Both the position numbers and the translations under genes were made by a program. The notes under the pieces were generated by a model that saw only the letters and a program-made list of their open reading frames with translations, had not been told where the DNA came from and did not search any database. DNA of 40,389 nucleotides, taken from an uncultured Bacteroidota bacterium. Lineage in GTDB: Bacteria > Bacteroidota > Bacteroidia > Flavobacteriales > Flavobacteriaceae. The DNA lies in NCBI GenBank assembly GCA_902609035.1, contig CACLQG010000008.1:1-40389 (forward strand). Reading direction: 5' to 3'. Positions 8,809-30,651 of the stretch are shown in pieces. Positions within the stretch are counted from its first letter, which is position 1; the number at the start of each line of letters is the position of its first letter.

Positions 8809-9363
8809 TTATAGTTTGGCCAAGACTTTTAAACCAATATTTGTTTTAACGCCAAATAAGTCTGGTTCAAATTTAGGCTTTACACTTAAATTATCTTTAA
8901 TGTTAAACTGCATTAGATGTGCACTTACGTTCGCGTCTAAAATATTTAACATATATGTTCCCAATATAAAGAGAAATGACATGTCTCTGTAGTTTTTGTG
9001 AAATTTCATCCCCTCAAGTAATTTGTTTTTATCTGGAATTAGTAGGATAAACTCATCATCTATATGACCTGCATTCCTTCTCTTATAGGCTGTCCTGTAA
9101 CGGTCTAATTCTTTTTGATTATGAACATAACCATAAACGGATGCTCCGATAGCAGCATATACAAAGGGAAGCTTCCAAGCTTTACCGATATAAATTTGTC
9201 CCAACCCCGGAAATATTGCGGAGTAAAACGCTGCTTTGGATGGCGTCAATGGGCTTGCAGTTAGCCATTCTTTCCTACTCATCTCCTCCTGATTGGGAAG
9301 TTCTTGAGCAAAAACTTGCAGGTAAATGAGAATTAAAATTGGGATAAAGACTTTAGTCTTCAC
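8809..9363 (-). CDS. DUF5683 domain-containing protein
   Basis: The 184-residue product starts with an apparent signal peptide (IPILILIYLQVFAQ, about 6-19). The DUF5683 core follows: AAFYSAIFPGLGQIYIGKAW (about 45-64), a hydrophobic stretch with YAAIGASVYGYV, then DRYRTAYKRRNAGH, and a second hydrophobic helix. The domain is widespread in Bacteroidota and is usually found right after parB, as here; its function is unknown. The start overlaps parB by 11 nt. The protein is likely membrane-associated in the envelope. Confidence 0.88.
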   Translation of the reverse strand: MKTKVFIPILILIYLQVFAQELPNQEEMSRKEWLTASPLTPSKAAFYSAIFPGLGQIYIGKAWKLPFVYAAIGASVYGYVHNQKELDRYRTAYKRRNAGHIDDEFILLIPDKNKLLEGMKFHKNYRDMSFLFILGTYMLNILDANVSAHLMQFNIKDNLSVKPKFEPDLFGVKTNIGLKVLAKL

Positions 9364-10249
9364 GTTTCAATTTTTTGGTGATATCGTCGAGATTTTTTTT
9401 TGAATTAAATGGAATTTGTATTACGCCTTTTCCCTTATCGTTTACTTTAACAGATATAGAGGTATTAAAATAATTTTTCAGCTCCTCAGCTATATCCCCA
9501 TAAAATTCTGATTTAAGACTTTTAGTTTTTTCGTTAGGTTCAGCTTTTTTACTTTTTTTAACGAGTAATTCAGTTTCCCTAACTGAAAGTGATTGCGCAA
9601 CGATTTTTTCGTATATCTCTAATTGTTTTTCGGTTTCATCAATGTTAATTAGTGCCCTCCCATGACCCATAGTAAGGAATCCATCTCTAATACCTGTCTG
9701 AATAATGGGGTCTAGTTTAAGCAAACGTATATAATTGGCTATGGTTGATCTTTTCTTTCCTACCCGCTGACTCAATTGGTTTTGAGTGAGATTGATCTCC
9801 TCGACCAGTCGCTGGAAGGAAAGTGCAATTTCTATTGGATCCAAATCTTTCCTCTGGATGTTCTCAACCAATGCCATTTCAAGTGTTTCTTTATCATTGG
9901 CGATTCTCACAAAAGCTGGAATAGCTTTAAAGCCTAAAGATTTTGCAGCCCGAAAGCGTCGCTCTCCAGAGACCAACTGATATTGGCTTTTTCCTAATTT
10001 TCTTACTGTTACTGGTTGAATGATGCCTAAGGCATTAATAGATTCTGCTAGTTCTTCAATAGACTCCTCATTAAAATGTGTTCTTGGTTGATACGGATTG
10101 ACTTCAATTTTATAGATTTCCAAATCAATGACTTTACCGACTACTTTGTCAGAATTAGTATCACTAGATGTGCTAATTTCTCTTTCGGAATTGTCTAAAA
10201 GAGCTGAAAGCCCTCTTCCCAATACTCGTTTTTTATTTTTCTTAGCCAT
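9353..10249 (-). CDS. parB: Chromosome partitioning protein ParB
   Basis: ParB is a CTP-dependent clamp that loads at parS sites and works with ParA to segregate the chromosome. A basic N-terminus (LGRGLSALLDN, the conserved ParB start) leads to the ParB/Srx domain with NPYQPRTHFNEESIEELAES (about 51-70) and the CTP-binding motif SGERRFRAAK (about 94-103). The helix-turn-helix has TQNQLSQRVGKKRSTIANYI, and a C-terminal dimerisation region follows. Length 298 is normal. Its start overlaps the parA stop by 8 nt. No parS palindrome was found in this window. Confidence 0.96.
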   Translation of the reverse strand: MAKKNKKRVLGRGLSALLDNSEREISTSSDTNSDKVVGKVIDLEIYKIEVNPYQPRTHFNEESIEELAESINALGIIQPVTVRKLGKSQYQLVSGERRFRAAKSLGFKAIPAFVRIANDKETLEMALVENIQRKDLDPIEIALSFQRLVEEINLTQNQLSQRVGKKRSTIANYIRLLKLDPIIQTGIRDGFLTMGHGRALINIDETEKQLEIYEKIVAQSLSVRETELLVKKSKKAEPNEKTKSLKSEFYGDIAEELKNYFNTSISVKVNDKGKGVIQIPFNSKKNLDDITKKLKRED

Positions 10250-11030
10250 TAACTAATTTTTTATTTTTCTTCTTCTTCTTAAGAATTTCATAGGCTAGTG
10301 ATAAGTAGTTTTTAGCGCCCCTACTCGTAGCATCGTAATCAATAATACTTTCACCAAAACTTGGGGCTTCACTCAATCGAATATTACGTTGGATAATAGT
10401 TTTAAATACCATTCTCCCAAAATGATTTTGAACCTCCTCAACAACTTGATTGGAGAGCCTTAAACGTGAATCATACATTGTAAGCAGTAAGCCTTCAATG
10501 TCTAGGTATTTGTTATGAATTTTTTGAACACTTTTAATAGTATTCAGGAGCTTACCCAACCCTTCCAAAGCAAAAAATTCACACTGAATGGGTATAATCA
10601 AGGAATCTGCAGCTGCTAGCGCATTGAGGGTGATTAACCCTAAAGAAGGAGCACAATCAATGATTATGTAATCATAATTGTCAACAACAGAGACCAGAGC
10701 CTTTTTGAGCATGTATTCCCTGTCTTTTTTGTCAACCAATTCAATTTCTGTAGCTACAAGATCTATATGTGAAGGGATCAAGTACAGATTTGGGGTTGAA
10801 GTTGTAATAATAGTTTCATTGGCAGTAGCAGCATGCTCCAGTAACTGATAAGTTCCTAATTTTTGATTTTTAACATCAATTCCCAATCCAGAGGTGGCAT
10901 TGGCTTGCGGATCGGCATCTACCAATAAAATTTTCTTTTCTAAAATTGCTAGTGCAGCTGCAAGATTTACAGCGGTTGTGGTTTTACCCACCCCTCCTTT
11001 TTGGTTTGCAATTGCAATGATTTTAGCCAT
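10242..11030 (-). CDS. parA: Chromosome partitioning ATPase ParA
   Basis: A deviant Walker-A ATPase of the ParA/Soj family that forms dynamic nucleoid-bound gradients driving origin segregation with ParB. The Walker A box KGGVGKTTTAVNLA is at residues 10-23, the switch I region DADPQANATSGLG at about 40-52, and Walker B YDYIIIDCAPSLG at about 117-129. Length 262 is normal. The C-terminus ends in a lysine-rich run (KKKKKNKK). It is the first gene of the run through WbqC, and about 80 bases separate it from the upstream gene on the same strand. Confidence 0.96.
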   Translation of the reverse strand: MAKIIAIANQKGGVGKTTTAVNLAAALAILEKKILLVDADPQANATSGLGIDVKNQKLGTYQLLEHAATANETIITTSTPNLYLIPSHIDLVATEIELVDKKDREYMLKKALVSVVDNYDYIIIDCAPSLGLITLNALAAADSLIIPIQCEFFALEGLGKLLNTIKSVQKIHNKYLDIEGLLLTMYDSRLRLSNQVVEEVQNHFGRMVFKTIIQRNIRLSEAPSFGESIIDYDATSRGAKNYLSLAYEILKKKKKNKKLVNG

Positions 11031-11109
11031 TTTTTAGAATCAAATTTTGATAAAAATACAATTAAAATTAGGGCTTAAAAAATTAAAGCAAACCAGATTC
11101 AGTAAAAGT

Positions 11110-11412
11110 TTAGTTAATTTTTGAGTTGTCTAAACTGTCCTCAAACTCTATGTAGAAAATAGTTTCTTCCTCCTTTTTATGTCCGTAATTTTCTCTTGCA
11201 TAACGCTCTAAACTATCTTTACTGCTTAGTTGTTGAATATTGGTCTTATCTTCATTAATCATGTTAATAAGATCTTTTTTTCTTTCCTCTAGTTTTTTAA
11301 TTTCTTGGTTTAGCTCGTTATGAATTTTTAATGAATGGGTATCCAAAAAAATCATCCAGATCAAAAAGAATAAAAAAATCAACACATAAAAATATCGGTA
11401 AATTTTACCCAA
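11110..11412 (-). CDS. FtsB/DivIC-like septum formation initiator
   Basis: A 100-residue single-pass protein. A short basic cytoplasmic N-terminus is followed by one transmembrane helix (VLIFLFFLIWMIFLD, about 11-25), then a coiled coil (LNQEIKKLEERKKDLINMIN, about 34-53), then the C-terminal SLERYARENYGHKKEEETIF element that is diagnostic of the FtsB/DivIC family (pattern YARENYGM). Such proteins bridge FtsQ and FtsL in the divisome. It lies 15 nt after the cytochrome c gene. It may be transcribed with that operon, although its role is unrelated. Confidence 0.88.
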   Translation of the reverse strand: MGKIYRYFYVLIFLFFLIWMIFLDTHSLKIHNELNQEIKKLEERKKDLINMINEDKTNIQQLSSKDSLERYARENYGHKKEEETIFYIEFEDSLDNSKIN

Positions 11413-11427
11413 AATAATAAATCTTAT

Positions 11428-11829
11428 TTATTTTTCTATGTTGTCCACTTGTTCTGCCGTTATCACTTTGTTGAATTCGTTTCCCCAATTATTTAGTATG
11501 TAATTCATTACATCTGCAATTTCAACATCATCAAGTCCCTGATTTTGCATGATACCATTGTATTGCTCTCCATTAACAACTATGGGGCCACTCAATCCAT
11601 ATTTAAGACCTCGAATGCTCATTTCTATATTGTTGATCAAATAATCTGATTTTGCTAACGGGGGAAATACTCCTGAAACTCCTTCGCCATTGTCCAGATG
11701 GCATTGTATGCAAAAGTCCAGATAAATTTCCTCCCCATCAGTTATGCTTTGTTCAAGTGGTTTATTTTGATAGATCCATGTTCCCTGAATAAGTATAAAA
11801 AACCCGACTATACCGAAAAGTATTTTCAT
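11428..11829 (-). CDS. Exported mono-heme cytochrome c
   Basis: A 133-residue protein with an N-terminal hydrophobic segment (ILFGIVGFFILIQG) acting as signal or anchor, and one heme-binding CIQCH (about residues 41-45). A later methionine (GIMQNQGL) is a plausible axial ligand, and the C-terminal helix DVEIADVMNYILNNWG is typical of small class I cytochromes c. It starts by TAATG overlap with the stop of the sugar dehydrogenase gene, so it very probably takes electrons from that enzyme in the periplasm. This partnership is inferred from the gene arrangement. Confidence 0.92.
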   Translation of the reverse strand: MKILFGIVGFFILIQGTWIYQNKPLEQSITDGEEIYLDFCIQCHLDNGEGVSGVFPPLAKSDYLINNIEMSIRGLKYGLSGPIVVNGEQYNGIMQNQGLDDVEIADVMNYILNNWGNEFNKVITAEQVDNIEK

Positions 11830-12950
11830 TATTTCTGAATAACCTTAAGAATACCCTTTCCCTCTACCCCTAGATAAAGATAACCATCAGGCCCTTGTTT
11901 AACGTTTCTTACCCGTCCAATTTCATCAAGGATTTTTTCCCGTTTTACTACTTTTCCTCTTTTGAGGACCAAACGTTCCAAATATTTAAATTTTAATGAC
12001 CCCACAAAAAGATTTCCTTTCCATTTTTTGTAAATATTTGAACTGGAAAAAGCCATCCCACTTGGTGCAATCGACGGTACCCAATAATATAGGGGTTGTT
12101 CCATACCGGGCATGGATCTCTTATCTGTAATGGAGGTGCCACTGTAGTTGATACCATATGTAATTAAAGGCCACCCATAGTTTTTTCCTTTTTGAACAAT
12201 ATTGATTTCATCCCCTCCTTTTGGGCCATGCTCATTTTCCCAGACCTCACCGGTTTTGGGATGAATGGTTATGCCTTGAGGGTTTCTGTGACCATAGGAG
12301 TAAATTGCTTTTAGTGCTCCTTCTTGATCGATGAAGGGGTTGTCGCCAGGAATACTTCCATCAAGATTTAAACGATATATTTTTCCTCCATCACGTTTCA
12401 AATCTTGAGGGTTTACATCTCGATTTCCACGATCTCCTATAGCAAAAAATAAATGTCCCATATCGTCAAAAACAATTCTTGATCCCCAGTGCTGTCCCTT
12501 TTTGGTATTGGGCTTGCCTTTATAGAAGAGTTTTAGATTGGAAATGCTGTTGCCATTTAATTCAGCGCAGTAAAGGGCAGTATTGCCACCGGCATCACCC
12601 TCTAAGTGAACTGCAGCGGTGAAGTAGATCAATTTGTTGTTTTTAAAATCAGGATGTAAAGCAACATCCATGAGGCCTCCTTGGCCTCTTTGATAGATTT
12701 CTGGAAGACCAGAAACTTCAACTTTATTTCCATTTGTGACCCTGTAAAGAATCCCTTTTTTCTCAGTTACTAAAATTTCATTTTCACTGATAAAATCCAT
12801 TCCCCAAGGAATGTCTAGGCCGTCTACTATTATTTCAGTAGTGAATTTTGACTGGTCTGGTGTTTTAACCTCAGGAGGATTTTCTTGAGATATACATGAG
12901 ATTACACAGAATACGCCTATGAATAATGGTGCAAAATTTTTATTTGTCAT
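11829..12950 (-). CDS. PQQ-type sugar dehydrogenase, lipoprotein
   Basis: A 373-residue member of the glucose/sorbosone dehydrogenase (soluble aldose dehydrogenase) beta-propeller family. It begins with a lipoprotein signal ending in VISC (Cys about 19). Family motifs are IPWGMDFI, GGLMDVALHPDF, QHWGSRIVFDDMGHLFFAIG with GDRGNRD, YGHRNPQGI, and NEHGPKGGDEINIV (about 238-251), which carries PQQ- and Ca-binding residues in characterised relatives. It would oxidise aldoses outside the cytoplasm and pass electrons to the overlapping cytochrome c gene product. No PQQ synthesis gene is in the window, so the cofactor may come from elsewhere. The exact sugar is unknown. Confidence 0.92.
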   Translation of the reverse strand: MTNKNFAPLFIGVFCVISCISQENPPEVKTPDQSKFTTEIIVDGLDIPWGMDFISENEILVTEKKGILYRVTNGNKVEVSGLPEIYQRGQGGLMDVALHPDFKNNKLIYFTAAVHLEGDAGGNTALYCAELNGNSISNLKLFYKGKPNTKKGQHWGSRIVFDDMGHLFFAIGDRGNRDVNPQDLKRDGGKIYRLNLDGSIPGDNPFIDQEGALKAIYSYGHRNPQGITIHPKTGEVWENEHGPKGGDEINIVQKGKNYGWPLITYGINYSGTSITDKRSMPGMEQPLYYWVPSIAPSGMAFSSSNIYKKWKGNLFVGSLKFKYLERLVLKRGKVVKREKILDEIGRVRNVKQGPDGYLYLGVEGKGILKVIQK

Positions 12951-12973
12951 ATCAACATAAATTTAACAAATAA

Positions 12974-14329
12974 TTATTCTTCAATCGCTTTTTTGTAAGC
13001 TTCTGTGGTGGTATAATATTTACTAATCATATTGGGCACCTCCCATTCTGGCAGTTTACTTTCCTTAAAGTACTTTAGGAAATTATTCGTAACCTGACTA
13101 AAATGAGCTTCATGTCCTATTTTTAGTACCTTGGGTATTACAATTTTCCATTGCAAGTCAGACATTTTATCTGCCTTAATTCCTGGATAAAATCCTTGAA
13201 GTGACTGAAGGGCCTGATTTAGGTTTGACTCAAAGTTAGCACCTTTTTTTGCGGATACATAAAGCGTGGGTTTGAAACTTTCATCTTCCCCTTGTTTGAT
13301 AATTAGATCGCTTTTTGTGCCACGCATAATACTTTGGTGGGTATCTCCCGTTCCCTCAGGTGCTTTATAATTCCATATTACGGAAACCTTTGCGTGCTTT
13401 CCTTTGATGGTATAGTTGATTTCTCCATTACAATATATGTTGAGGGTGTCTGACTCCACATCTTTTTGAAGGTATTCAGGGTAACTATCCAAACCGGTAA
13501 TGTTCTTAAACTGATTGGGAGCCAGATTAGTGGTCCACCTTTTGGCGGAAATGATTTCAATATCCGATCGGTTAATGATCTGGTTTGGAAAGGCTTCCCA
13601 TTGAACCAAATCTACCAAATGGGTAGTGACATCTACAATGCCCTCTCCCTGTTGGTTTGTATCTAGAAACCAAGCTGGTCTAACGAGTGGTTTTCCTGAG
13701 ACATTTTTGGACAAATGGTGAATACTTTCTTTACTGATGGATGGTTTTGATGGAGACCCATCCAAAAGCATACCGAATACCTCGGGTTTCATGGAAAGTG
13801 CTTTTTGAATACCTGTAGTAACTTCAAATCGCTCAGTCATGATGTCGTAAACCAAAAGATTTTTCTTTTTGGCGATTTCAAAGACTTTTTCAAGTTTTTT
13901 AAAACCATCTTGATCAACAACTAGTGGCTTATCGGCATAAACATTCAATCCTGCATTGACTGCTGCCAAAATGTAATCGATTTTTTTGGAGTTTTTACCC
14001 GAAACAACCATTACATTTCCCGGTTTTTCAACTATCATTTTTTCGAGGTAATCCTCACTGAAGTGAGTTTTTACAATCCAATTAGTGGGTTTTTTTGTTC
14101 TGATGTTATAACCTTCTATTTTGTTTAAAAAGTCTTTGACTTCAGGGCCTTCGGGCGCATAGACATCAACAGTTGGATCAATGTCTTTATAAGAAGTTTT
14201 TTGGATCAAAGCGGCGTGAAAATGACCGGGGTCGAGCGTCATCAATTTTACTTTTGAGTTTTCTTTTTTTGGTGTGCAACCCAAGACGAATGCAGCAATT
14301 GTAATCCAGTAAAATTTTTTAGTATTCAT
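12974..14329 (-). CDS. Gfo/Idh/MocA family oxidoreductase, lipoprotein form
   Basis: The 451-residue protein starts with a lipoprotein signal (ITIAAFVLGC, Cys 18). The Gfo/Idh/MocA Rossmann domain is atypical: KLMTLDPGHFHAALIQ replaces the usual GxGxxG, while NVYADKPLV (about 130-138) takes the place of the canonical EKP motif. The C-terminal half fits the putative oxidoreductase C-terminal domain found in similar Bacteroidota proteins (VDVTTHLVDLVQWEAFPNQI; GTGDTHQSIMRGTKSDL). Location at the membrane with a degenerate nucleotide site raises the question of whether it uses a tightly bound NAD(P). It lies between another Gfo/Idh gene (5 nt gap) and the sugar dehydrogenase (23 nt gap). Confidence 0.9.
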   Translation of the reverse strand: MNTKKFYWITIAAFVLGCTPKKENSKVKLMTLDPGHFHAALIQKTSYKDIDPTVDVYAPEGPEVKDFLNKIEGYNIRTKKPTNWIVKTHFSEDYLEKMIVEKPGNVMVVSGKNSKKIDYILAAVNAGLNVYADKPLVVDQDGFKKLEKVFEIAKKKNLLVYDIMTERFEVTTGIQKALSMKPEVFGMLLDGSPSKPSISKESIHHLSKNVSGKPLVRPAWFLDTNQQGEGIVDVTTHLVDLVQWEAFPNQIINRSDIEIISAKRWTTNLAPNQFKNITGLDSYPEYLQKDVESDTLNIYCNGEINYTIKGKHAKVSVIWNYKAPEGTGDTHQSIMRGTKSDLIIKQGEDESFKPTLYVSAKKGANFESNLNQALQSLQGFYPGIKADKMSDLQWKIVIPKVLKIGHEAHFSQVTNNFLKYFKESKLPEWEVPNMISKYYTTTEAYKKAIEE

Positions 14330-14334
14330 TTTAA

Positions 14335-15711
14335 TTAAGCTTTTAATTGATTGGTTCCGTATGGTTTTCTTTGAGGTCTTTCCAAAAGAGCATTGGCCTC
14401 ATTATCATTGATGAATTTCTCTATTTTTGAATCCCACTCAAGTTTACGAGGTATTTTCATAGCGATGTGACTGATCAAACAGACCACACACGCCATATGA
14501 CCAATATTAACTGGAGAGATAGGAGCTTTTCTGGATTCAATACAGTCAATCCAGTTGCCGTGCTGGTCATCAATTTTATAGAGATGGGTTTCATTGGACC
14601 CAATTTTAGAATCTAGAATTTTTGGATCGGAGGCGTCTAATGCTTTTTTACTTTTTTCCAGTGCAACAGGATCGGAGCTTGATGCCACATAAGTCCCTCG
14701 TGAAACAAAAATCCACCCCTCTGATCCTTCATATCTTACCCCATTAGGATATCCTCCACTAGTCAAGACAGTTATGCCATTCTCGTATTCGTGTTTGACC
14801 ATGAAATCACCATGGACATTCCATAAACCTGATTTGGGAAAATCCGCAATGGCTTGAACCGATGAAGGTCCAACCAATTCGGTATTCATACCCCAAGCAG
14901 CCGAGTCATAATGGTGTTGTCCCCAACCCGTAATCATTCCTGCACCGTAATTTTCATGTCTGAGCCAACCCGGCCTGCTGTATCCCTTCTTAGGATGAAC
15001 CCCAATTTCTGTGTAGGGAACCTCGGGAGTTGAGCCCAACCACATGTCAAAATTCAAATTTTCAGGAATGGGCATGGCAGGTGCCTCAGGCCCTCCTGGA
15101 TCACCGGGAAGCCCAATTTTTACGGTATGTAAATTTCCAATTCTACCGTTTCTTACCAATTCGGCAGCAATTCTAAATTGAGGCATAGCCCTTTGTTGTG
15201 TTCCTACCTGAAGAATGACCTTGTTTTTTTGAACTGCATTGACCAATTGTCTCCCCTCTTTGACGGTCAGTGAGGTAGGTTTCTGAAGATAAATGTCTTT
15301 TCCTGCCATGGCTGCCTCTATAGCAGGTTGAGAATGCCAGTGGTCGGGAGTGGAGATTAACACAGCATCTATATCCTTGTTTATCAGCATTTTACGATAA
15401 TCTTCATACATCTTTGTACCTTTGTAGTTGGCTTTTTCTTTTTTCTTTTGATAAAATTGATCGACCAACAACTTTCCATCTTTCATACGATTGGTATCCA
15501 CGTCACAGACTGCCATAACATTGGCATTGTTAAAGGCCATGGTGTCAATCAGATCATGTTGACGAGCAATACGCCCACAACCTATTTGTCCGATATTAAT
15601 TTTGTTACTGGGAGCATTTTTTCCAACTACACTTGCTGGGACTATTGAGGGGTACCCAATCATAGCAGCTGTTCCTAGTGAGGTTTTACTTATAAATTTT
15701 CTTCTCTTCAT
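14335..15711 (-). CDS. Gfo/Idh/MocA family oxidoreductase with Tat signal
   Basis: A 458-residue oxidoreductase exported folded via the Tat pathway: the N-terminus has RRKFIS followed by a hydrophobic stretch and IVPASVVG. The Rossmann motif is NIGQIGCGRIA (about 38-48). DIYLQKPTSLTVKEGRQLV stands at the EKP site (about 139-157), and GAGMITGWGQHHYDSAAWGM (about 258-277) contains the conserved catalytic-region Asp/His. Tat export fits a protein that binds NAD(P) in the cytoplasm and carries it out. Family members of this type oxidise or isomerise sugars and inositols. It is 4 nt from the DUF6807 gene and 5 nt from the second Gfo/Idh gene. Confidence 0.93.
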   Translation of the reverse strand: MKRRKFISKTSLGTAAMIGYPSIVPASVVGKNAPSNKINIGQIGCGRIARQHDLIDTMAFNNANVMAVCDVDTNRMKDGKLLVDQFYQKKKEKANYKGTKMYEDYRKMLINKDIDAVLISTPDHWHSQPAIEAAMAGKDIYLQKPTSLTVKEGRQLVNAVQKNKVILQVGTQQRAMPQFRIAAELVRNGRIGNLHTVKIGLPGDPGGPEAPAMPIPENLNFDMWLGSTPEVPYTEIGVHPKKGYSRPGWLRHENYGAGMITGWGQHHYDSAAWGMNTELVGPSSVQAIADFPKSGLWNVHGDFMVKHEYENGITVLTSGGYPNGVRYEGSEGWIFVSRGTYVASSSDPVALEKSKKALDASDPKILDSKIGSNETHLYKIDDQHGNWIDCIESRKAPISPVNIGHMACVVCLISHIAMKIPRKLEWDSKIEKFINDNEANALLERPQRKPYGTNQLKA

Positions 15712-15715
15712 TGGT

Positions 15716-16960
15716 TTAATTATTTTGAAATTTTATTGAGGGTTGAAAAGCAAATGCTTTCCAGTGTTTTTCAGCTTCTTCGGATGTAATTTTACCATCA
15801 AAAACAAGCATACGATAATTCAGTTCATAGGTTTGCTCTGGGTCAATTTTCCATTCTTCGTGACGAATGGGGCAAAATTCAAAGAACATATCTCCTCTTC
15901 CATTATTGGAGTCTGGTGGCCAAATTCTCATGGGTTCTGGATGCGATTGATTATTGGGGTGACTCATAAAAAGGACACCTGTACTGCCTTTTCCATCGCT
16001 GGCATCTCCATAAACAATACACCATCTTGAAGAGGTACCATCAGCTTCAGTTCTATTTTTTCCCTCGGAAGTAATGACCTCACAATTATATTTATTCCAT
16101 AATTCCTTAAAGCGGAATCCCAAACCACCTCCATATCGGTACGCTTCGAAAAGGATGCCGTTTTCTAGAGGAGTACTGAAGTTGGAAGTGTAATCTATGA
16201 AGTACTGATTTGGATTATTATTTTTCCATACTTTGACTATTAAGTTTTCGTTGAGTGCCAATTGAGGTCTAGTTTTTTGGTTCAAATTGAAATGTTCTTG
16301 ATGTGCATTGAAACCTGCATAAACACCTCCTGATTCGATGTTGTGAAAACTTTTAAATAAAACTGTGCCTTGTCCGTCCCTCAAATTCCAAAAGTCAACC
16401 CCAACATCGTCGATTCTTGTTCTGGTCCAAGGACCCCAAACCCCATAATGGTGATAGTGATCGGGGGGTTGAATTCGAGTCAGTGTATCTCCTTTTGGGG
16501 AAATTACGGGGTGGATATAGCCGGATTTTTGGTAAAGTTGATTGATGCCTTCCGGTGGTGATTTCATTTCATAACGATAATGAATTAATGATTGTTTTCC
16601 GTGAGAAAGTTTTAGATCACCCCCCTCTTTTTTTAAATTAAATGCTTGGTTAGTGATTTGGTTTTTTTTTGGCTCAAAACAGTAAGTCGTTTTGATTTGG
16701 CCATCACTTTTATGATTAAACCAAATTTTATTCTCTTTTTGGACATCTAATTGATAATCAATCACTTTAGCTTTAATCTCAGATTTTTTAATCAATATCA
16801 TTTCGGGATTCCAACAATTATTTTTTTCTTCTATTAAAATTGAAATGGGTCTTTCAGGGCTTTCTAGGTCAAAATCTTGAACTTCTATACACAAGCAAGG
16901 ACTTTCCGCTTTGAAGGAACACCCGATAATAACTAAGAATAATAGACAAGAAAATTTCAT
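15716..16960 (-). CDS. DUF6807 (PmoA-like) family lipoprotein
   Basis: The 414-residue product has a lipoprotein signal (LLFLVIIGC, Cys 14). The C-terminal two thirds match the DUF6807/PmoA-like domain: KSGYIHPVISPKGDTLTRI, PPDHYHHYGVWGPWTRTRID (about 166-185), and later EADGTSSRWCIVYGDASDGK, GVLFMSHPNNQSHPEPMRIW and FEFCPIRHEEW. The domain is often found with Gfo/Idh oxidoreductases and glycoside-processing genes in Bacteroidota; the name PmoA does not imply methane oxidation. It leads the minus-strand operon and diverges from the ThuA gene across a palindrome-rich intergenic region. Activity is unknown, with a sugar-related surface role inferred. Confidence 0.85.
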   Translation of the reverse strand: MKFSCLLFLVIIGCSFKAESPCLCIEVQDFDLESPERPISILIEEKNNCWNPEMILIKKSEIKAKVIDYQLDVQKENKIWFNHKSDGQIKTTYCFEPKKNQITNQAFNLKKEGGDLKLSHGKQSLIHYRYEMKSPPEGINQLYQKSGYIHPVISPKGDTLTRIQPPDHYHHYGVWGPWTRTRIDDVGVDFWNLRDGQGTVLFKSFHNIESGGVYAGFNAHQEHFNLNQKTRPQLALNENLIVKVWKNNNPNQYFIDYTSNFSTPLENGILFEAYRYGGGLGFRFKELWNKYNCEVITSEGKNRTEADGTSSRWCIVYGDASDGKGSTGVLFMSHPNNQSHPEPMRIWPPDSNNGRGDMFFEFCPIRHEEWKIDPEQTYELNYRMLVFDGKITSEEAEKHWKAFAFQPSIKFQNN

Positions 16961-17067
16961 AGAACAGTTGTAAAATAATCAAAATATTTTACAGCGAAGA
17001 ATTGAAATATTTAATTAAGTGATGTCTTTTATCTATTTTCATATTCTGTTACATATAAACATTGAAA

Positions 17068-17106
17068 GAACAGACGTTTTTATACGCCTGTTCGTGTACG
17101 CACACG
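17068..17106. promoter_or_regulatory. Paired inverted repeats in the divergent promoter region
   Basis: Two adjacent inverted repeats stand out as GC-rich in an AT-rich spacer. GAACAG (17068-17073) pairs with CTGTTC (17088-17093) across 14 nt. CGTGT (17093-17097) pairs with ACACG (17102-17106) across 4 nt. They lie between the divergent starts at 16960 (minus) and 17189 (plus), a natural place for an operator controlling both arms of the sugar-oxidation cluster. No regulator is encoded next to it, and no clear TAnnTTTG box was found for either gene. Confidence 0.5.
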
Positions 17107-17188
17107 CCAATAAAAGTAAATTTAGTAAATTCAAAAAAATATTTATCATTTAATTTTCATAATCTTGTCTTTTAATCAAATAATCTAA

Positions 17189-18121
17189 ATGAGTCTCAAT
17201 TTTAAATCATTAATTTTCATTATTCTCTTTATTTTTAATTCAGTGCTGCAGGCACAAAGCTTACCTTCTTTTGAATTGAACTCTGAGTGGAGAACAAGTA
17301 TTAAATCAATGGTCAATTCTCAAAAGAAATTGAGCTTGAAAGAAAAAAAGAAGCTGTTAATTTTTTCATTACATACTGGATTTGAGCACTGGACTATTCC
17401 TCATACAGAAGCTGTAATGGAGATTATTGCAAGAAATTCAGAGGTATTTGAAATAGACTTATCAAAAGATATTTCAGTTTTTGAAAAGGACCAATTATCG
17501 AAATATGATGTAGTGATACTCAATAATAATTGTTCGAAAGGAGATCGAAGAGATATATTTTGGGATGTGTTGAAAACGGAATCATCTTTACATGAACAAG
17601 AGTTGATCAAAAAAGCCAGTGAATTGGAGAATAACCTTATTCTTTTTGTAAAAAAAGGTAAAGGTTTAATGGTTCTTCATGGTGGAATTGTAATGCAGAA
17701 TAATTCATTAGATTTTAGTGATATGATAGGAGGAAGTTTTGATTATCATCCTCCTCAGCAAGAAATTAATGTTAAATTAGTAGATCCTGATCATCCATTG
17801 GTAAGTGATTTTGACCCAGAGGGTTTTGTTCATTTCGATGAGCCTTATTTTTTCAAAAATGCATATTATAGATATAATTTTCGACCCCTACTCTACATTG
17901 ACTTGGATCAAATTTTAATGAATAGAAAACGACCCAGTGACAAAATCAAATACATTTCATGGATTAAACGTTTTGGAAGAGGAAGGGTGTTTTATTGTTC
18001 CCCTTCTCACAACGCCCAAAGTTATGATAATCCTAAACTGCTTCAATTTCTTACAAATGGATTGTATTATGCTGCAGGTTTAATATCTTGTGACGATTCT
18101 CCCATTGGGGATATTCAGTAA
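17189..18121 (+). CDS. Exported ThuA domain-containing protein
   Basis: A 310-residue protein with a signal peptide (FIILFIFNSVLQAQS, cleavage near 23). The ThuA-like domain (class I amidotransferase-like fold) shows LLIFSLHTGFEHWTIPHTEA (about 55-74), YDVVILNNNC, KGKGLMVLHGGIV, DYHPPQQEINVKLVDPDHPL, and the C-terminal GRGRVFYCSPSHNAQSYDNP. ThuA proteins belong to disaccharide catabolism via 3-keto intermediates in rhizobia, and in Bacteroidota they occur with Gfo/Idh oxidoreductases, as here. The enzymatic activity is not settled for this family. It diverges from the DUF6807 operon and is followed by an alpha/beta hydrolase. Confidence 0.9.
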   Translation: MSLNFKSLIFIILFIFNSVLQAQSLPSFELNSEWRTSIKSMVNSQKKLSLKEKKKLLIFSLHTGFEHWTIPHTEAVMEIIARNSEVFEIDLSKDISVFEKDQLSKYDVVILNNNCSKGDRRDIFWDVLKTESSLHEQELIKKASELENNLILFVKKGKGLMVLHGGIVMQNNSLDFSDMIGGSFDYHPPQQEINVKLVDPDHPLVSDFDPEGFVHFDEPYFFKNAYYRYNFRPLLYIDLDQILMNRKRPSDKIKYISWIKRFGRGRVFYCSPSHNAQSYDNPKLLQFLTNGLYYAAGLISCDDSPIGDIQ

Positions 18122-18127
18122 CCTTAA

Positions 18128-18910
18128 TCCAAAACCATCAAAAAATATCTAATCATATTATTAATATTAGGATTTACCTCTGTATCTGCACAAGAATATG
18201 AACCAAATGTTTTTTTCCATCGGAATGACACCTTGCCTTACAGAATTCTTTTACCTGAAGATTTTGATTCACAAAAATCCTATCCTTTATTAGTAATTCT
18301 TCATGGATCAGGCGAACGTGGTAATGATAATGAATTACAACTATTTCATGGAGGCTATCTTTTTAAAACAGAAGAATTTAGAGCTAAATACCCATCTATT
18401 GTTGTTTTTCCACAGTGTCCTGTGGAGTCTTACTGGGCAAGTGTGTCCGAAGATTATGACACATCATCATTAAAAAAAAAATACACTTACGCGAAATCAC
18501 TACCTAAAAATTCACAGTTGGATATAGTTGAATCTTTAATCAAATCCTTGGAGCAGAATTACCCTATTGATACTAGTCGACGCTACCTAGGAGGTTTGTC
18601 CATGGGAGGTATGGGAACCTTTGAATTAGTGAGCAGGAATCCAGATTTTTTTGCGGCTGCATTTCCTATTTGTGGTGGTGCTAACCCCAATTGGGCCCCT
18701 TTGTTAAGCAAAACCCCTTTATGGTTATTTCATGGAGAAAAGGATGACGTGGTTTGGGTTAAGCATTCCAAACGCGTTTTTAAGGCACTCAAGAAACTCG
18801 GTGCTCCTGTTAGGATTACACTATATCCCGATGTTAAACACGATAGCTGGAATTATGCCTTTGCAAATCCAAATTTGATGAAATGGTTGTTTAGTAATAC
18901 GAAAAAATAG
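18128..18910 (+). CDS. Exported alpha/beta hydrolase lacking a canonical start codon
   Basis: From just after a TAA at 18125-18127 the frame reads a clear signal peptide (KKYLIILLILGFTSVSAQ) and then a complete dienelactone hydrolase/carboxylesterase-like domain of about 240 residues. Visible motifs are YPLLVILHGSGERG, the nucleophile GLSMGGMGT, the acid LFHGEKDDVVWV and the histidine DVKHDSW. No ATG, GTG or TTG precedes the signal peptide. Where MKTIKKY would be expected the DNA gives TCC-AAA-ACC-ATC. The options are a rare ATC start at 18137, a mutated start (young pseudogene), or sequence error. The TTG at 18233 would remove the signal. It lies 6 nt after the ThuA stop, so the two are probably co-transcribed. 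The stop abuts the 3' end of a convergent tRNA gene. Confidence 0.8.
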   Translation, partial: SKTIKKYLIILLILGFTSVSAQEYEPNVFFHRNDTLPYRILLPEDFDSQKSYPLLVILHGSGERGNDNELQLFHGGYLFKTEEFRAKYPSIVVFPQCPVESYWASVSEDYDTSSLKKKYTYAKSLPKNSQLDIVESLIKSLEQNYPIDTSRRYLGGLSMGGMGTFELVSRNPDFFAAAFPICGGANPNWAPLLSKTPLWLFHGEKDDVVWVKHSKRVFKALKKLGAPVRITLYPDVKHDSWNYAFANPNLMKWLFSNTKK

Positions 18911-18984
18911 TCGGGATGACAGGATTTGAACCTGCGACCCCACGCACCCCATGCGTGTGCGCTACCAAGCTGCGCCACATCCCG
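18911..18984 (-). tRNA. tRNA-Pro (anticodon GGG)
   Basis: Reading the minus strand gives a full cloverleaf: acceptor CGGGATG pairing with CATCCCG, D-stem GCGC/GCGC, anticodon stem CACGC/GCGTG with loop ATGGGGT (anticodon GGG), and T-arm with GGTTCAAATCC. The discriminator is A. No CCA is encoded: the next bases on this strand are CTA, the complement of the hydrolase stop TAG. It reads CCC/CCU codons. It lies 34 nt downstream of tRNA-Pro(TGG), likely in one transcript. Confidence 0.96.
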
Positions 18985-19018
18985 AGTTGACCTTACGGTA
19001 ACTGTTGTAAAATAATTG

Positions 19019-19093
19019 TCGGGGTGGCAGGATTCGAACCTGCGACCTCCTGCTCCCAAAGCAGGCGCGATGACCGGGCTACGCTACACCCCG
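19019..19093 (-). tRNA. tRNA-Pro (anticodon TGG)
   Basis: The minus strand gives acceptor CGGGGTG pairing with CACCCCG, a D-arm containing AGCCCGGTCATCGC, anticodon stem CCTGC/GCAGG with loop TTTGGGA (anticodon TGG), and T-arm GGTTCGAATCC. The discriminator is A with no encoded CCA. It reads CCA/CCG and probably other proline codons. It is first in a two-tRNA unit with a good promoter about 30 nt upstream. Confidence 0.97.
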
Positions 19094-25268: not shown

Positions 25269-26165
25269 ATGATAAACAAACATAATGGAAAACGCAGGGT
25301 CGTATTAAAAAAAATAACACTTACTTAATTGGGATTACCCTTAACTGAAAAATTTAAAATCAACCAAGTAGATAATTATAAAATATTAAATGAGATGAAT
25401 AGAAAAGGAAACATCAATCACTCAGTTTGCAAATGGTGTTATAATAATATATCACTCGAGGAATTCGCAATTAATATAAAATTAATAGGGATTACAGGGA
25501 TAGACTTGATTGGACCCGAGCAATGGCCCATTTTAAAAAAATACAATTTGAACTCTTCCATGTGTAATGGAGCTGAGATAAGTTTGACAGAGGGTTGGAA
25601 TGATAAGCAATATCATGGTGTATTAGTCAACAAATACTTAAATCACATCGATTTGGTCGCAGCTGCTGGATATCAAAATCTAATTTGTTTTTCTGGAAAT
25701 AGGAGAAATATAGATAACGAAACAGGCATGAATAATTGTGTTGAAGGATTGAAGAAGATTTTGGGTCATGCAGAAAAAAAAGGAGTTATGATTCAAATGG
25801 AATTACTAAACTCAAAAATTGATCACGAGGACTATATGTGTGATAATTCACATTGGGGATTTGAATTATGTCGTAGACTAGACTCCAATAATTTTAAGTT
25901 ACTTTATGATATTTATCACATGCAAATAAATGAGGGCGATGTAATAAGAACAATTAATGAAAATTATGAGTTTATTGGACATTATCATACTGCTGGAGTA
26001 CCCGGTAGAAATGAGATAGATCACACCCAAGAATTGTGTTATCCTGCGATAATGAAATCTATTTTAGCTACTGGTTTTAAAGGTTATGTAGCTCAAGAAT
26101 TCATACCCAAAAATAAGCAACCATTAGAATCCCTCAAAAAGTCCATTGATGTTTGTGATGTTTAA
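25269..26165 (+). pseudogene. Hydroxypyruvate isomerase-like TIM-barrel protein; stop codon in Tat signal
   Basis: From ATG 25269 the frame reads NKHNGKRRVVLKKITLT, then TAA (25326-25328), then LGLPLTEKF and a full isomerase domain in the same frame. This looks like a twin-arginine leader (KRRVVLKK) interrupted by one nonsense codon. The domain has WCYNNISLEEFA, VMIQMELLNSKIDHEDY (metal-binding Glu), YDIYHMQINEGD, GHYHTAGVPGRNEIDHT and the C-terminal GYVAQEFIPK, as in Hyi/sugar-phosphate isomerases. A cytoplasmic form might still be made from TTG 25329 or ATG 25395. It follows the broken SDR at 3 nt. The intact barrel suggests recent loss, or reading error. Confidence 0.8.
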
Positions 26166-27961: not shown

Positions 27962-29623
27962 TTACCAAAGAAGAGAATATGTAACGGTTAAAATAATTAA
28001 AGTAGCAAAAGCACCAATATTAAAAAGGGGAGAGGTTTTAAATATTCCATGAGGTAAATTGATTGCTTTAGCGTCATCAGCGCTTTTGTTTTGCCTGAGA
28101 CTCACGATTATAATAACAGCCATAGTTAAAAGAGCGGTGAGACCCATCTGATCCATCCATGGCAGGGTGGGGAAAAAAGCTTCAAGTGCCGTTCCATCAA
28201 CCCATCCATTTGATCCAACTTTAAGAATCATGGCAATAGGTATAGAACTCAATGCACCCCAAATGGCAGCTTTGTTGGTAGTTTTTTTCCAAAACAAACC
28301 GAGTATGAAAACAGCTAGGATACCTGGGCTTACAATACCAGTGTACTCTTGAATAAACTGAAAGGCTTGATCAATGCCTCCCAAAAGAGGTGCCATTGTA
28401 GCACCTATAATCAGTGCAACAGCAGCAGACAAACGTCCAACTTTAACTATTTTCTTATCGTCAGCATTTTTATCGATCAATTGTTTGTAGATGTCCATTG
28501 TGAAAATGGTCGAGGTAGAATTCAACATAGAAGCCAATGAGGATACAATAGCTGCAGCCAAAGACGCAAATGCAACTCCTTTAAATCCTACTGGCAAAAA
28601 CTGCATCAACCAAGGGTAGGCTTTATCAGCTTTTCCCTCTGCTGGAATATTCATCATTCCATTTTCACCTAAACTTGCAAGTATTTCAGGGTCATTGACA
28701 ATGACATATGCCGCTATTCCAGGAATGACTACAATGAATGGAATGATTAATTTAAGCCCTGCAGCAAATAATATCCCCTTCTGAGATTCTCTAAGTGACT
28801 TTGCAGCCAGGGTGCGTTGGATTATATACTGGTTGAATCCCCAATAGTAAAGATTGGCGACCCAAAGTCCACCCACCAATACGCCAATACCAGGCAGGTT
28901 ATTGTATTCTGGGTTACTTTTGTCTAAGATCATTTCAAAACGATCTGGTGTAGCATTATAAATGGATTTTAAACCCTCTAGAACCCCTTGACCCTGAGAC
29001 ACAGTGTCCAAGGCCAAAAAAGTAGTAACCAAGCCTCCTAAAACAAGAAAAATGACTTGTATAATATCAGTCCAAGCTACTGCTGTCAATCCTCCATAGA
29101 GTGAGTAGGCTGCTGCAAAAAGGGCCAATCCTGCAACTGCATATACCAAGTCTATTCCTATGATAGTTTCCAATGCCAGCCCTCCCAAATACATTACTGA
29201 AGCTAGGTTGACAAACACATATAGTCCAATCCAAAAGATTGCTAAAATCGTTTTCAGTTGTGATGAAAAACGTTTTTCAACAAACTCTGGAATAGTATAT
29301 AATTTTTTTTCTATAAAAATGGGCAGGAAGTATTTCCCAACAATAATTAGCGTTATTGCTGCCATCCATTCATACGAAGCAATGGCTAAGCCCAAAGCAA
29401 AACCTGAACCCGACATACCGATAAATTGTTCGGCTGAAATATTGGCAGCAATCAATGATGCTCCAATGGCCCACCAAGGGAGAGACTTACCTGCTAAAAA
29501 GTAGTCCTCAGCACTTTTTTCTTCTCCTTTTTTATCTCTTGAAACCCAAAGTCCCAAGCCCAATATAACTAGGGCATAAACAAAAAAAATAAGGTAGTCC
29601 AAAAATTCAAAGCTAGAATTCAT
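27962..29623 (-). CDS. Sodium/solute symporter, SSS (SGLT-like) family
   Basis: A 553-residue polytopic inner-membrane transporter with about 14 hydrophobic helices. Family features are YFLAGKSLPWWAIGASLIAA (about 41-60) and NISAEQFIGMSGSGFALGLA (about 61-80, with the Na+-site residues), AAAYSLYGGLTAVAWTDIIQ, NQYIIQRTLAAKS and FASLAAAIVSSLASMLNSTS. The last region corresponds to the conserved TM8 sodium site. It resembles Bacteroidota SGLT-type sugar symporters. The start overlaps the galE stop as TAATG, so the two are coupled, which makes a sugar such as galactose or glucose a reasonable guess, not a proven substrate. Confidence 0.93.
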   Translation of the reverse strand: MNSSFEFLDYLIFFVYALVILGLGLWVSRDKKGEEKSAEDYFLAGKSLPWWAIGASLIAANISAEQFIGMSGSGFALGLAIASYEWMAAITLIIVGKYFLPIFIEKKLYTIPEFVEKRFSSQLKTILAIFWIGLYVFVNLASVMYLGGLALETIIGIDLVYAVAGLALFAAAYSLYGGLTAVAWTDIIQVIFLVLGGLVTTFLALDTVSQGQGVLEGLKSIYNATPDRFEMILDKSNPEYNNLPGIGVLVGGLWVANLYYWGFNQYIIQRTLAAKSLRESQKGILFAAGLKLIIPFIVVIPGIAAYVIVNDPEILASLGENGMMNIPAEGKADKAYPWLMQFLPVGFKGVAFASLAAAIVSSLASMLNSTSTIFTMDIYKQLIDKNADDKKIVKVGRLSAAVALIIGATMAPLLGGIDQAFQFIQEYTGIVSPGILAVFILGLFWKKTTNKAAIWGALSSIPIAMILKVGSNGWVDGTALEAFFPTLPWMDQMGLTALLTMAVIIIVSLRQNKSADDAKAINLPHGIFKTSPLFNIGAFATLIILTVTYSLLW

Positions 29624-30651
29624 TATAATTTACGTATTTTTTTTTCCCATTGCCAAGCAGTTTTCAGTGCCTCTTCAAGATCATTTTCAGCCTTCCATCC
29701 CAAGATTTTATTGGCTTTGGAAGCGTTGGCATAAGCCTCCACAATATCACCTGTCCTTCGGTCTACAATATCGTAGTCTAGAGAGAAACCAGATACTCTT
29801 TCGAAGGTTTTAATTACTTGTAAAACACTATTACCTTTACCCGTACCCAAATTGAATACATCAAAATTTTCATTTTGTTCACCGGACATCATTCTTTTAA
29901 GTCCGAGGACATGAGCTTTTGCCAAATCTACAACATGGATGTAATCTCTTATACAGGTTCCGTCAGGAGTAGGGTAATCATTGCCAAAAACGTTAAGTTT
30001 TTGATGAATCCCTGCAGCTGTTTGGGTTATAAATGGAACAAGGTTTTCTGGTTTTCCCTTTGAAAGCTCACCGATTTCAATACTCGGATGACACCCAATG
30101 GGGTTAAAGTATCTAAGTGAAATTACCTTTAAATTATTATTGGAACAGGTATTGTCAAAAAGAATATCTTCACCTATCTGTTTGGTATTTCCGTAGGGAG
30201 ACTCAGCTTTTTTTATGGGTGCCATTTCAGTAATTGGGAGTTGATCGGCTTGGCCATAAACAGTGCATGAGGAACTGAAAATAAATGAAAGGGCTTGGGT
30301 TTTCTCCGCAATTGCTTGAAGTAAATATATAAGAGAAACTAAATTATTTTCGTAATATGCTAAGGGTTGATTGACGCTTTCTCCAACTGCTTTTGAGGCA
30401 GCAAAGTGAATGACTCCGGAAATTTCAGGGTAATCCTTAAATAATTGGTATAATTTTTTTTTATTCCTTAAGTCAAGTTTAATGAATTTTGGTGTAACTC
30501 CTGTGATTTTTTTTATGCCTTTTAATACTTCAACAGAGCTATTGGAAAGATTGTCAATAATTATGATTTCAAATCCCTGTAGGATCAACTCTACACTGGT
30601 GTGTGAGCCTATATAACCCAGACCGCCCGTGACTAAAACTTTTGAAATCAA
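29623..30651 (-). CDS. galE: UDP-glucose 4-epimerase
   Basis: GalE interconverts UDP-glucose and UDP-galactose, feeding the Leloir pathway and polysaccharide synthesis. The NAD-binding motif GGLGYIGSHTSVEL is at residues 8-21; VIHFAASKAVGESV, FIFSSSCTVYGQA (catalytic Ser/Thr region) and the YxxxK in SPYGNTKQIGED are present. Later motifs SLRYFNPIGCHPS, TPDGTCIRDYIHVVDLAKAH and FNLGTGKGNSVLQV confirm the epimerase over other SDR-extended enzymes. Length 342 is normal. It is the first gene of a two-gene unit with the symporter. Confidence 0.95.
   Translation of the reverse strand: MISKVLVTGGLGYIGSHTSVELILQGFEIIIIDNLSNSSVEVLKGIKKITGVTPKFIKLDLRNKKKLYQLFKDYPEISGVIHFAASKAVGESVNQPLAYYENNLVSLIYLLQAIAEKTQALSFIFSSSCTVYGQADQLPITEMAPIKKAESPYGNTKQIGEDILFDNTCSNNNLKVISLRYFNPIGCHPSIEIGELSKGKPENLVPFITQTAAGIHQKLNVFGNDYPTPDGTCIRDYIHVVDLAKAHVLGLKRMMSGEQNENFDVFNLGTGKGNSVLQVIKTFERVSGFSLDYDIVDRRTGDIVEAYANASKANKILGWKAENDLEEALKTAWQWEKKIRKL

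Follow-up and report, generated by a model that had tools for sequence, protein, structure and literature searches.

Seven consecutive genes (positions 11428–18910) in a stretch of 40,389 nucleotides from an uncultured Flavobacteriaceae bacterium (contig CACLQG010000008.1; the whole stretch is called the window here) raise the question of whether they form a single exported sugar-oxidising pathway, as an original prediction had it, or a composite of separate parts. Four or five of the seven genes seem to belong together. In our judgement, the best explanation of the locus as a whole is a periplasmic 3-keto cassette for uronosides that was inserted beside a resident GSDH block, a reading to which we give a probability of roughly 0.55.

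Gene content and export signals of the locus

An ORF check recovered all seven predicted genes in their positions and on their strands, and every product matched a Pfam family above the gathering score. The minus strand encodes a single-haem cytochrome c (CIQCH; Cytochrom_C; 11428–11829), a GSDH-family (PQQ) sugar dehydrogenase lipoprotein with which it is paired (11829–12950), a PF16490 lipoprotein (Oxidoreduct_C, 432.7 bits; 12974–14329), a Tat-exported Gfo/Idh oxidoreductase (GFO_IDH_MocA; 14335–15711; hereafter the Tat enzyme) and a putative DUF6807 lipoprotein (PF14100; 15716–16960). On the plus strand lie a ThuA-domain protein, divergent from the cassette operon (17189–18121), and an alpha/beta hydrolase of the esterase/S9 type (18233–18910), whose orthologues adjoin ThuA in three related loci (L004, L007 and L138). 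Two tRNA-Pro genes (18910–19093, minus strand) mark the outer cassette edge and are a candidate insertion hot spot; megablast linked the locus to no plasmid. A Pfam scan of 30 window ORFs agreed with the original prediction in finding neither a TonB receptor nor a glycosidase family, and it gave no match to SusC, SusD or the 3-keto hydrolase family PF06439. Relatives differ in this respect: of 80 related loci, 23 have a cluster annotated as SusC beside the cassette and 22 one annotated as SusD.

The original prediction has all seven products carrying export signals. The N-terminus of the Tat enzyme carries a twin-arginine motif (MKRRKF) whose R3 and R4 are invariant in 29 aligned sequences, the window's included, and a crude RR motif was found in 57 of 61 Tat-enzyme entries compared to 1/80 for PF16490, 1/20 for DctP, 1/22 for SusD, 0/20 for UxuA and 0/31 for SDR. 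Cys18 in the lipobox of the PF16490 protein is invariant in 15 aligned sequences, and a lipobox test based on guessed starts was passed by 39/80 PF16490, 18/50 DUF6807 and 6/9 GSDH entries. The window's own PF16490 and GSDH proteins pass this test, while its DUF6807 protein fails it, the N-terminus reading ...LVIIGC by eye. ThuA and cytochrome c have hydrophobic N-termini, which carry no weight for export since the same hydrophobic-stretch test was positive for 7/8 ParA proteins. The alpha/beta-hydrolase ORF as called (start TTG at 18233) has no export signal; a signal-peptide-like stretch runs in frame from 18128, with no ATG, GTG or TTG before it. In its relatives, an in-frame GTG directly precedes the signal-like stretch (L004 and L138) or an in-frame ATG lies farther upstream of it (L007).

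A conserved core unit

Conservation was assessed in 397 Flavobacteriaceae genomes, a family sample used instead of an earlier order-wide one (119 genomes, 2 positives including the centre genome, G004). A PF16490 orthologue (E <= 1e-120) was present in 46 genomes, and the gene for the Tat enzyme lay adjacent to it in 46/46, on the same strand and 15–324 bp away. The Tat enzyme itself occurs in 48/397 genomes; DUF6807 is present in 41 of these 48, on the same strand within 3 kb in 40/48. Exceptions exist in both directions: 5/46 genomes have DUF6807 but no Tat enzyme, and 7/48 have the Tat enzyme but no DUF6807. Co-occurrence of PF16490 and of DUF6807 with the Tat enzyme gave Fisher P values of 3e-58 and 7e-43, which are not corrected for shared ancestry. 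ThuA was found in 46 of 80 anchored loci. The DUF6807–Tat enzyme–PF16490 genes together with the divergent ThuA gene are a real unit; GSDH and cytochrome c have a different neighbourhood in relatives (see below).

Similarity of the Tat enzyme to glycoside 3-dehydrogenases

The Tat enzyme belongs to the Gfo/Idh/MocA family by its NAD-binding domain (PF01408, 66.4 bits; cut-off 24). Its closest solved fold is the glucoside-3-dehydrogenase AL3 of Alistipes (8tdf; Foldseek, E 3.2e-18), which is also its top sequence match and makes it a candidate glycoside 3-dehydrogenase. On the negative side, it scored 138.8 bits with the NCBIfam model NF058561 (BT_2158), far below the equivalog cut-off of 750, so it is similar to the BT_2158 type but does not count as one of its members. 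A second point against the assignment is that the Asp-x3-His of many Gfo/Idh enzymes is Gly-x3-His in the Tat enzyme, at G262 and H266, which are invariant in 29 aligned sequences (motif position read by eye). The usual dinucleotide loop of Gfo/Idh enzymes, GxGxxG/A, is replaced in the PF16490 partner by LDPGHFHA, likewise in its solved homologue 4oo3, and PF01408 is unmatched, so that NAD use by this Gfo/Idh-like protein is uncertain. ThuA matched PF06283 with 115.2 bits (cut-off 33.4). Our searches found no enzyme of exactly the family at issue here with measured activity.

As the best explanation, we propose that a single clade of marine Flavobacteriaceae with small genomes goes back to an ancestor in which the cassette (ThuA and DUF6807–Tat enzyme–PF16490, here with the alpha/beta hydrolase) came to lie with the two tRNA-Pro genes on one side and, on the other, a GSDH–cytochrome c–DivIC–ParAB block that was already resident. 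In the periplasm, the Tat enzyme would oxidise the C3 hydroxyl of a glycoside with tightly held NAD(P), and the resulting 3-keto-glycoside would then be split by DUF6807 at its glycosidic bond. Returning the redox state or rearranging the keto-sugar would be the task of the PF16490 partner, possibly with ThuA, so that an external electron acceptor would not be needed. The preferred sugar would most likely belong to the uronic acids (D-glucuronate class) found in sulfated algal glycans. The released uronate would be imported by a TRAP transporter and degraded by uronate isomerase, mannonate oxidoreductase, UxuA, a PfkB kinase and KDPG aldolase, whose genes lie elsewhere in clade genomes, apparently under the same operator.

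Uronate genes and a candidate operator

Genes for an SDR, UxuA or DctM neighbour the cassette in 25 of 48 fully flanked loci. In one such locus (L009; one SDR and one UxuA scored), both proteins exceeded their NCBIfam cut-offs, the SDR as a D-mannonate oxidoreductase and the UxuA as a mannonate dehydratase, and the cassette loci of cultured relatives have added UxuA, mannonate oxidoreductase, TRAP and SusCD genes. In the remaining 23/48 fully flanked loci, which include every Cyclobacteriaceae locus, all three neighbours are absent, as they are in the window. This absence, together with the structure of AL3 solved with trehalose (8tdh), speaks for an unlikely yet serious alternative in which neutral glycosides are the substrate of the 3-keto pathway and the uronate genes are just common PUL cargo. 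However, UxuA of five other genomes is 63–74% identical to the Arenibacter cassette copy, whereas the second, general UxuA carried by each of the same six genomes (Arenibacter and the five) is only 46–49% identical to it.

A further point against neutral glycosides is a palindrome common to the cassette and the glucuronate operon. This sequence, CGTGTACGCACACG, lies at 17093–17106 of the window (no strand assigned); it recurs in ThuA/DUF6807 regions of the clade, including L138, and upstream of glucuronate, SusC and fusion operons in cluster-bearing genomes. It is absent, even with one mismatch, from one of the nine clade loci whose upstream region was available (L008). The motif GTGTNCGNACAC occurs 26 times across six clade genomes that bear the cluster, compared to 6 for the reversed control; in seven other small-genome relatives the counts are 2 and 7, respectively. 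All except two of the 26 sites (24/26) lie outside called ORFs. Sorted manually, five belong to a LacI/uronate operon, three to ThuA/DUF6807, three lie before the Gfo/Idh-fusion pair and nine before SusC; of the remaining six, three sit at DUF5916 or next to a sulfatase, and the other three have no obvious link (H+-pyrophosphatase twice, one unclear). We propose the palindrome as the operator of a LacI-family regulator. Most likely, the core unit serves a periplasmic 3-keto-glycoside pathway that acts on glycans containing uronate, and ocean bacteria probably use the exported cassette to break sugar-acid bonds via prior oxidation of the sugar.

A proposed role for DUF6807 in keto-sugar cleavage

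The Pfam name of DUF6807 denotes a protein of unknown function, and the one paper with this name in the literature searched uses it as a label only. Three clade genomes (G001, G002 and G003) encode DUF6807 fused to a PF06439 3-keto-disaccharide hydrolase, and these fusion genes adjoin a Gfo/Idh gene and sulfatases. The fusion suggests that DUF6807 accompanies keto-sugar cleavage, and we regard the window protein as a candidate 3-keto-glycoside cleaving enzyme (lyase or hydrolase). With co-occurrence far beyond chance, the fusion also upholds the predicted tie of an exported Gfo/Idh and ThuA unit to 3-keto-sugar metabolism. No PDB sequence matched DUF6807 up to E 1. Its model resembles a PL26 lyase over 331 residues, a fold shared by a large superfamily; the alpha-mannosidase Ams1 equals PL26 in score and mutarotases nearly do so. 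An improbable alternative is that the Tat enzyme and/or the PF16490 protein themselves hydrolyse glycosides in the NAD-dependent manner of GH109, with DUF6807 as a mutarotase or binding protein. GH109-type matches do occur, but they come 44th and 49th when sorted by E-value, behind AL3, and the fusion suggests a role for DUF6807 in cleavage instead.

What this analysis usefully adds is a proposed place for DUF6807 in 3-keto chemistry. With the fusion, the partner pair and the operator as starting points, its function becomes directly testable, and marine Flavobacteriaceae could gain a further known means of cleaving glycans. Tentatively, and with the odds against it, DUF6807 might even be a new enzyme class, a lyase or hydrolase with supersandwich fold that cleaves uronosides (as 3-keto-glycosides) after their oxidation at C3. 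One LacI-type regulon of small-genome ocean Flavobacteriaceae would then unite this oxidative route with sulfatases, SusCD transporters and the catabolism of glucuronate, all serving the use of sulfated uronate glycans as one system.

The GSDH–cytochrome c pair as a separate module

The original prediction had read all seven genes as one extracytoplasmic respiratory pathway, with electrons from the same substrates passing through GSDH and cytochrome c to the respiratory chain, a reading we now consider quite improbable. In its favour, GSDH and cytochrome c are co-directional with the cassette operon in the window, with 23 bp between GSDH and PF16490 and a one-base overlap of cytochrome c and GSDH, and 13/80 relatives have a comparable partner, a fusion of DUF7133 with cytochrome c, no more than 10 kb from PF16490. 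In a PF16490 tree with long-branch rows kept, the linked group of 12 rows contains no unlinked row, which fits a single origin of the cassette–GSDH junction. The window GSDH itself has the GSDH domain (PF07995, 420.2 bits; structural relatives 7cdy and 2g8s). Of 18 genomes scanned for PQQ synthesis genes, PqqE exceeded the cut-off in 0/18 and PqqC matched in 0/18, in a scan whose control genomes likewise stayed below cut-off.

Against one pathway, a GSDH orthologue is present in 300/397 Flavobacteriaceae genomes compared to 48/397 for the Tat enzyme, and GSDH adjoins the cassette in 2 of the 38 cassette-bearing genomes whose GSDH position was among the matches listed (38 of the 46 Tat-positive genomes having GSDH). 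Neighbourhoods were taken for 12 of the 13 best GSDH matches (G476 was left out). DivIC, ParA and ParB (9353–11412, minus strand) are neighbours of the pair with or without the cassette and served as the empty-site anchor. In ten relatives, GSDH–cytochrome c adjoins DivIC–ParAB at a site without the cassette; Flavivirga has the pair with udk–DivIC–ParAB and likewise no cassette; and cytochrome c adjoins GSDH in 10/12 loci outside the clade. The locus therefore consists of two modules, and the frequencies, adjacency and cassette-free sites rule out the seven genes as a conserved unit and undercut the dehydrogenase and cytochrome c as the electron outlet of the cassette. In this one clade, where the pair is co-directional with the cassette, it may still have been recruited. 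That the genes are chance neighbours without joint function fits the relation of GSDH–cytochrome c to the cassette outside one clade but is hardly credible overall, and for the core genes it is ruled out by the adjacent oxidoreductases in every PF16490-positive genome. Under the preferred reading, the seven genes look like one pathway because the cassette now adjoins a respiratory enzyme pair of separate history, an example of how an insertion flanked by tRNA genes can mimic a new respiratory pathway when a PQQ dehydrogenase is already resident next to it.

Comparison with known systems

A 3-keto-glycoside pathway of Bacteroides thetaiotaomicron (BT2157–BT2160) was reportedly described by Nasseri et al. 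in Nature in 2024. BT2158 is also described in the accessible part of PMC11300592, and in that of one paper BT2157 or BT2158 mutants had no growth defect on raffinose-family sugars. As far as these texts go, the shared feature is a periplasmic Gfo/Idh glycoside 3-dehydrogenase, the nearest solved structures to the window enzyme being those of Alistipes AL3. The window enzyme differs in falling below the BT_2158 cut-off, and its cassette has DUF6807, PF16490 and ThuA instead of a DUF1080 gene.

According to the accessible text of PMC9007349, the Caulobacter lacABC and DUF1080 lactose pathway similarly combines periplasmic C3 oxidation with a proposed DUF1080 (PF06439) cleavage of the 3-keto-glycoside, by the same domain that is fused to DUF6807 in the three clade genomes. 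Its dehydrogenase, however, is a three-component membrane-bound enzyme, and that text does not mention DUF6807. The Agrobacterium AtOGE O-glycoside beta-eliminase operon, in the portion of PMC10628242 that is available, shares C3 oxidation, elimination, hydration and a reductive step catalysed by a Gfo oxidoreductase; AtOGE itself depends on Mn and folds as a TIM barrel, whereas the DUF6807 model is a supersandwich. Two Maribacter papers, in their available parts, mention an arabinogalactan PUL that includes a mannonate dehydratase and a Gfo/Idh GH109 but not the window cluster, and no description of the cassette was found among the titles and abstract openings searched.

The window GSDH aligns with the GSDH-type structures 2g8s and 7cdy over the whole domain; unlike them, it has an N-terminus of the lipoprotein type and a cytochrome c partner of its own. 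The NS5_D sugar-acid PUL of marine Flavobacteriaceae is described in the accessible part of PMC9122927 with no mention of a 3-keto cassette, a DUF6807 fusion or the operator. In genomes of ~2.0 Mb and 37% GC, it combines TRAP transporters, uronate isomerase and mannonate dehydratase, as does the operon of one of our loci (L124).

Gene content and export signals in the window

ORF calls and family profile matches confirmed all seven genes that the original prediction had joined into one exported sugar-oxidation cluster, each belonging to the family named. From cytochrome c to DUF6807 (15716..16960, minus strand) the spacing is operon-like: cytochrome c and the PQQ sugar dehydrogenase (GSDH) overlap by 1 base, and gaps of 23 bp, 5 bp and 4 bp separate GSDH from the PF16490 lipoprotein (12974..14329, minus strand), the latter from the Tat-exported Gfo/Idh protein (Tat enzyme; 14335..15711, minus strand), and this from DUF6807. 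ThuA diverges from DUF6807 across 228 bp. The Tat motif of the Tat enzyme was invariant in 29 of 29 aligned sequences, and the lipobox cysteine of the PF16490 protein in 15 of 15. Export of the alpha/beta hydrolase is less secure than originally claimed: its frame (18128-18910) encodes a signal-peptide-like stretch without a preceding ATG, GTG or TTG, while three relatives have an in-frame start, which leaves start loss, a rare start codon or a sequencing error. Two tRNA-Pro genes follow (18910-19093).

Residues 32-39 of the PF16490 protein read LDPGHFHA in place of the usual dinucleotide loop, a motif kept in 4oo3, and in the alignment two invariant histidines stand where others bind NAD. In two related loci (L017, L021) the gene for the Tat enzyme is broken into a pair of overlapping reading frames, through assembly errors or decay. 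A hydroxypyruvate-isomerase-like TIM barrel, a sodium/solute symporter and an NAD-epimerase lie 6-12 kb past the cassette (25329-26165 and 27962-30651).

Conservation of the unit

Genome contigs were scanned with the PF16490 alignment, and among the best 80 loci, many of them interrupted by contig ends, the Tat enzyme was found in 60, DUF6807 in 50 and ThuA in 46; the 48 loci flanked by 9 kb on each side gave 42, 37 and 37, respectively. A second test, less prone to bias, covered 397 Flavobacteriaceae genomes (three draws, treated as one set because their genome identifiers agree). The Tat enzyme (E <= 1e-150) occurred in 48 genomes, the PF16490 orthologue (E <= 1e-120) in 46 and DUF6807 (E <= 1e-60) in 46. 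All 46 PF16490 genomes carried the Tat enzyme, on the same strand and 15-324 bp away, and DUF6807 was present in 41 of the 48 Tat genomes, in 40 on the same strand and no more than 3 kb away. At these thresholds, seven Tat genomes lacked DUF6807 and two lacked PF16490, and five DUF6807 genomes lacked the Tat enzyme. The Tat enzyme was rare in a wider sample of the order (2 of 119 genomes, centre genome counted).

GSDH and cytochrome c as a separate neighbourhood

The original prediction had counted GSDH and cytochrome c as cassette members, with cytochrome c as the electron outlet. This was not borne out, because GSDH orthologues (E <= 1e-125) occurred in 300 of the 397 genomes, GSDH adjoined the Tat gene in only two (G376, G157) of the 38 Tat-positive genomes with a listed GSDH position, and ten GSDH sites lacked the cassette. 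GSDH was present in 46 of the 48 Tat-positive genomes; among the 38 positions, the nearest non-adjacent copy was that of G358, at 14.6 kb from the Tat gene. Twelve relatives outside the window clade (small-genome marine Flavobacteriaceae with the cassette beside GSDH–cytochrome c) had GSDH in other contexts, with cytochrome c found alongside in 10; the two Flavivirga genomes among these twelve read GSDH-cytochrome c-udk-DivIC-mutase-...-ParA-ParB and had no cassette there. Neighbourhoods were examined for 12 of the 13 best GSDH matches: two contained the cassette (L138, L139), and the other ten read GSDH-DivIC-ParA-ParB with no cassette; cytochrome c was found in nine of the ten. A distant Gfo/Idh gene lies at the outer end of one of them (L137), and one genome (G450) has the cassette at a different place. 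GSDH–cytochrome c is a neighbour, whether or not it has been drafted in the window clade.

Despite the wide occurrence of GSDH in the family, no PqqE above the cut-off and no PqqC match was found in 18 genomes (G001-G014, G017, G018, G157, G376), searched without a positive control; PQQ may be scavenged. In 13 of the best 80 loci (for example L014:1130-3421), a DUF7133–cytochrome c protein, counted as a protein cluster of which one member was scanned with Pfam, lies no more than 10 kb from PF16490 and may be a different kind of electron partner.

Seven cassette-less loci were scanned for tRNA genes: six (L129, L132, L134, L135, L137, L140) have the tRNA-Pro pair between LysR and GSDH, and the seventh (L131) has neither gene. 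Gene content of the LysR-to-GSDH interval differs among these six loci and the window, and the interval looks like an insertion hot spot. The 12 GSDH-linked rows of the 83-row PF16490 tree form one group (support 99/86, one change), which fits a single origin without proving it. The simplest history would be one insertion of the cassette at the tRNA-Pro interval, the mechanism being conjectural.

A candidate operator

The palindrome CGTGTACGCACACG (17093-17106), in the divergent ThuA/DUF6807 region, is a putative operator. In 2.09 Mb of loci selected around these genes, GTGTNCGNACAC occurred at eight sites, five at ThuA/DUF6807 and three at LacI/uronate operons of the same clade. Six cluster-bearing clade genomes contained 26 sites versus 6 for the control; seven other small-genome relatives, including G450 with its cassette elsewhere, contained 2 versus 7. 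Outside ORFs of at least 70 codons lay 24 of the 26 sites, against a non-coding share of 6.8% in the stretches; these had been selected to surround the sites, and related genomes do not supply independent sites. By our sorting, five sites belong to the LacI/uronate operon, three to ThuA/DUF6807, three to a Gfo/Idh gene with a DUF6807 fusion, nine to SusC operons and six to other places. One of these six lies before a sulfatase, one has a 3-keto hydrolase on one side and a sulfatase on the other, and one separates an arylsulfotransferase gene from a DUF5916 gene; two concern an H+-pyrophosphatase and one is unclear. The two H+-pyrophosphatase sites (L170:4515, L173:4565), from two genomes, have a DUF5686 gene on their other side and are unexpected for a purely catabolic regulon. 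Among the nine clade loci that cover this region (the window and eight others), five had the exact motif, three a variant, directly upstream of ThuA in L017 and L139, and one (L008) neither.

The fusion joins DUF6807 to a 3-keto-disaccharide hydrolase (PF06439; L158:5920-7539, L161:1608-3179, L163:5933-7552) and, in three genomes, has a Gfo/Idh gene and sulfatases next to it and the same palindrome in front.

Uronate neighbours and proposed pathway

In Arenibacter, and partly in Maribacter, Zobellia and others, the unit is accompanied by SusC/SusD, a LacI regulator, an SDR, UxuA and a TRAP transporter; in L009, the SDR scored above the NCBIfam cut-off for D-mannonate oxidoreductase, and UxuA above that for mannonate dehydratase. 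At least one of SDR, UxuA or DctM was found in 25 of the 48 fully flanked loci among the best 80. Each of four window-clade genomes tested had one uxuA match (E <= 1e-40) at a locus other than the cassette, surrounded by a mannonate-oxidoreductase-like SDR and DctPQM. The stretch in G002 also encodes UxaC, a PfkB kinase, KDPG aldolase, KduI, an SDR, DUF4861, an MFS transporter, a Gfo/Idh protein, a PhoD-like phosphatase and GH88. Uronate neighbours were missing from the Cyclobacteriaceae loci and many of the Prolixibacteraceae loci examined, so the substrate may differ there. Seven loci (L045, L052, L058, L060, L062, L063, L076) have a URO-D/methylcobalamin-methyltransferase-like gene upstream of DUF6807, assigned as a protein cluster from one scanned member.

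We propose that the unit serves a redox-neutral periplasmic 3-keto-glycoside pathway for uronate-containing glycans. The Tat enzyme would oxidise the glycoside, DUF6807 would cleave it, PF16490 and ThuA would reduce or rearrange the product, and TRAP would import the uronate. A redox-neutral step is suggested because the two oxidoreductases are constantly paired; we infer it by analogy with glucose-fructose oxidoreductase. No description of the DUF6807 role, the DUF6807 fusion or the shared operator was found in the literature searched; the proposed scheme itself is a variant on an already known type of pathway.
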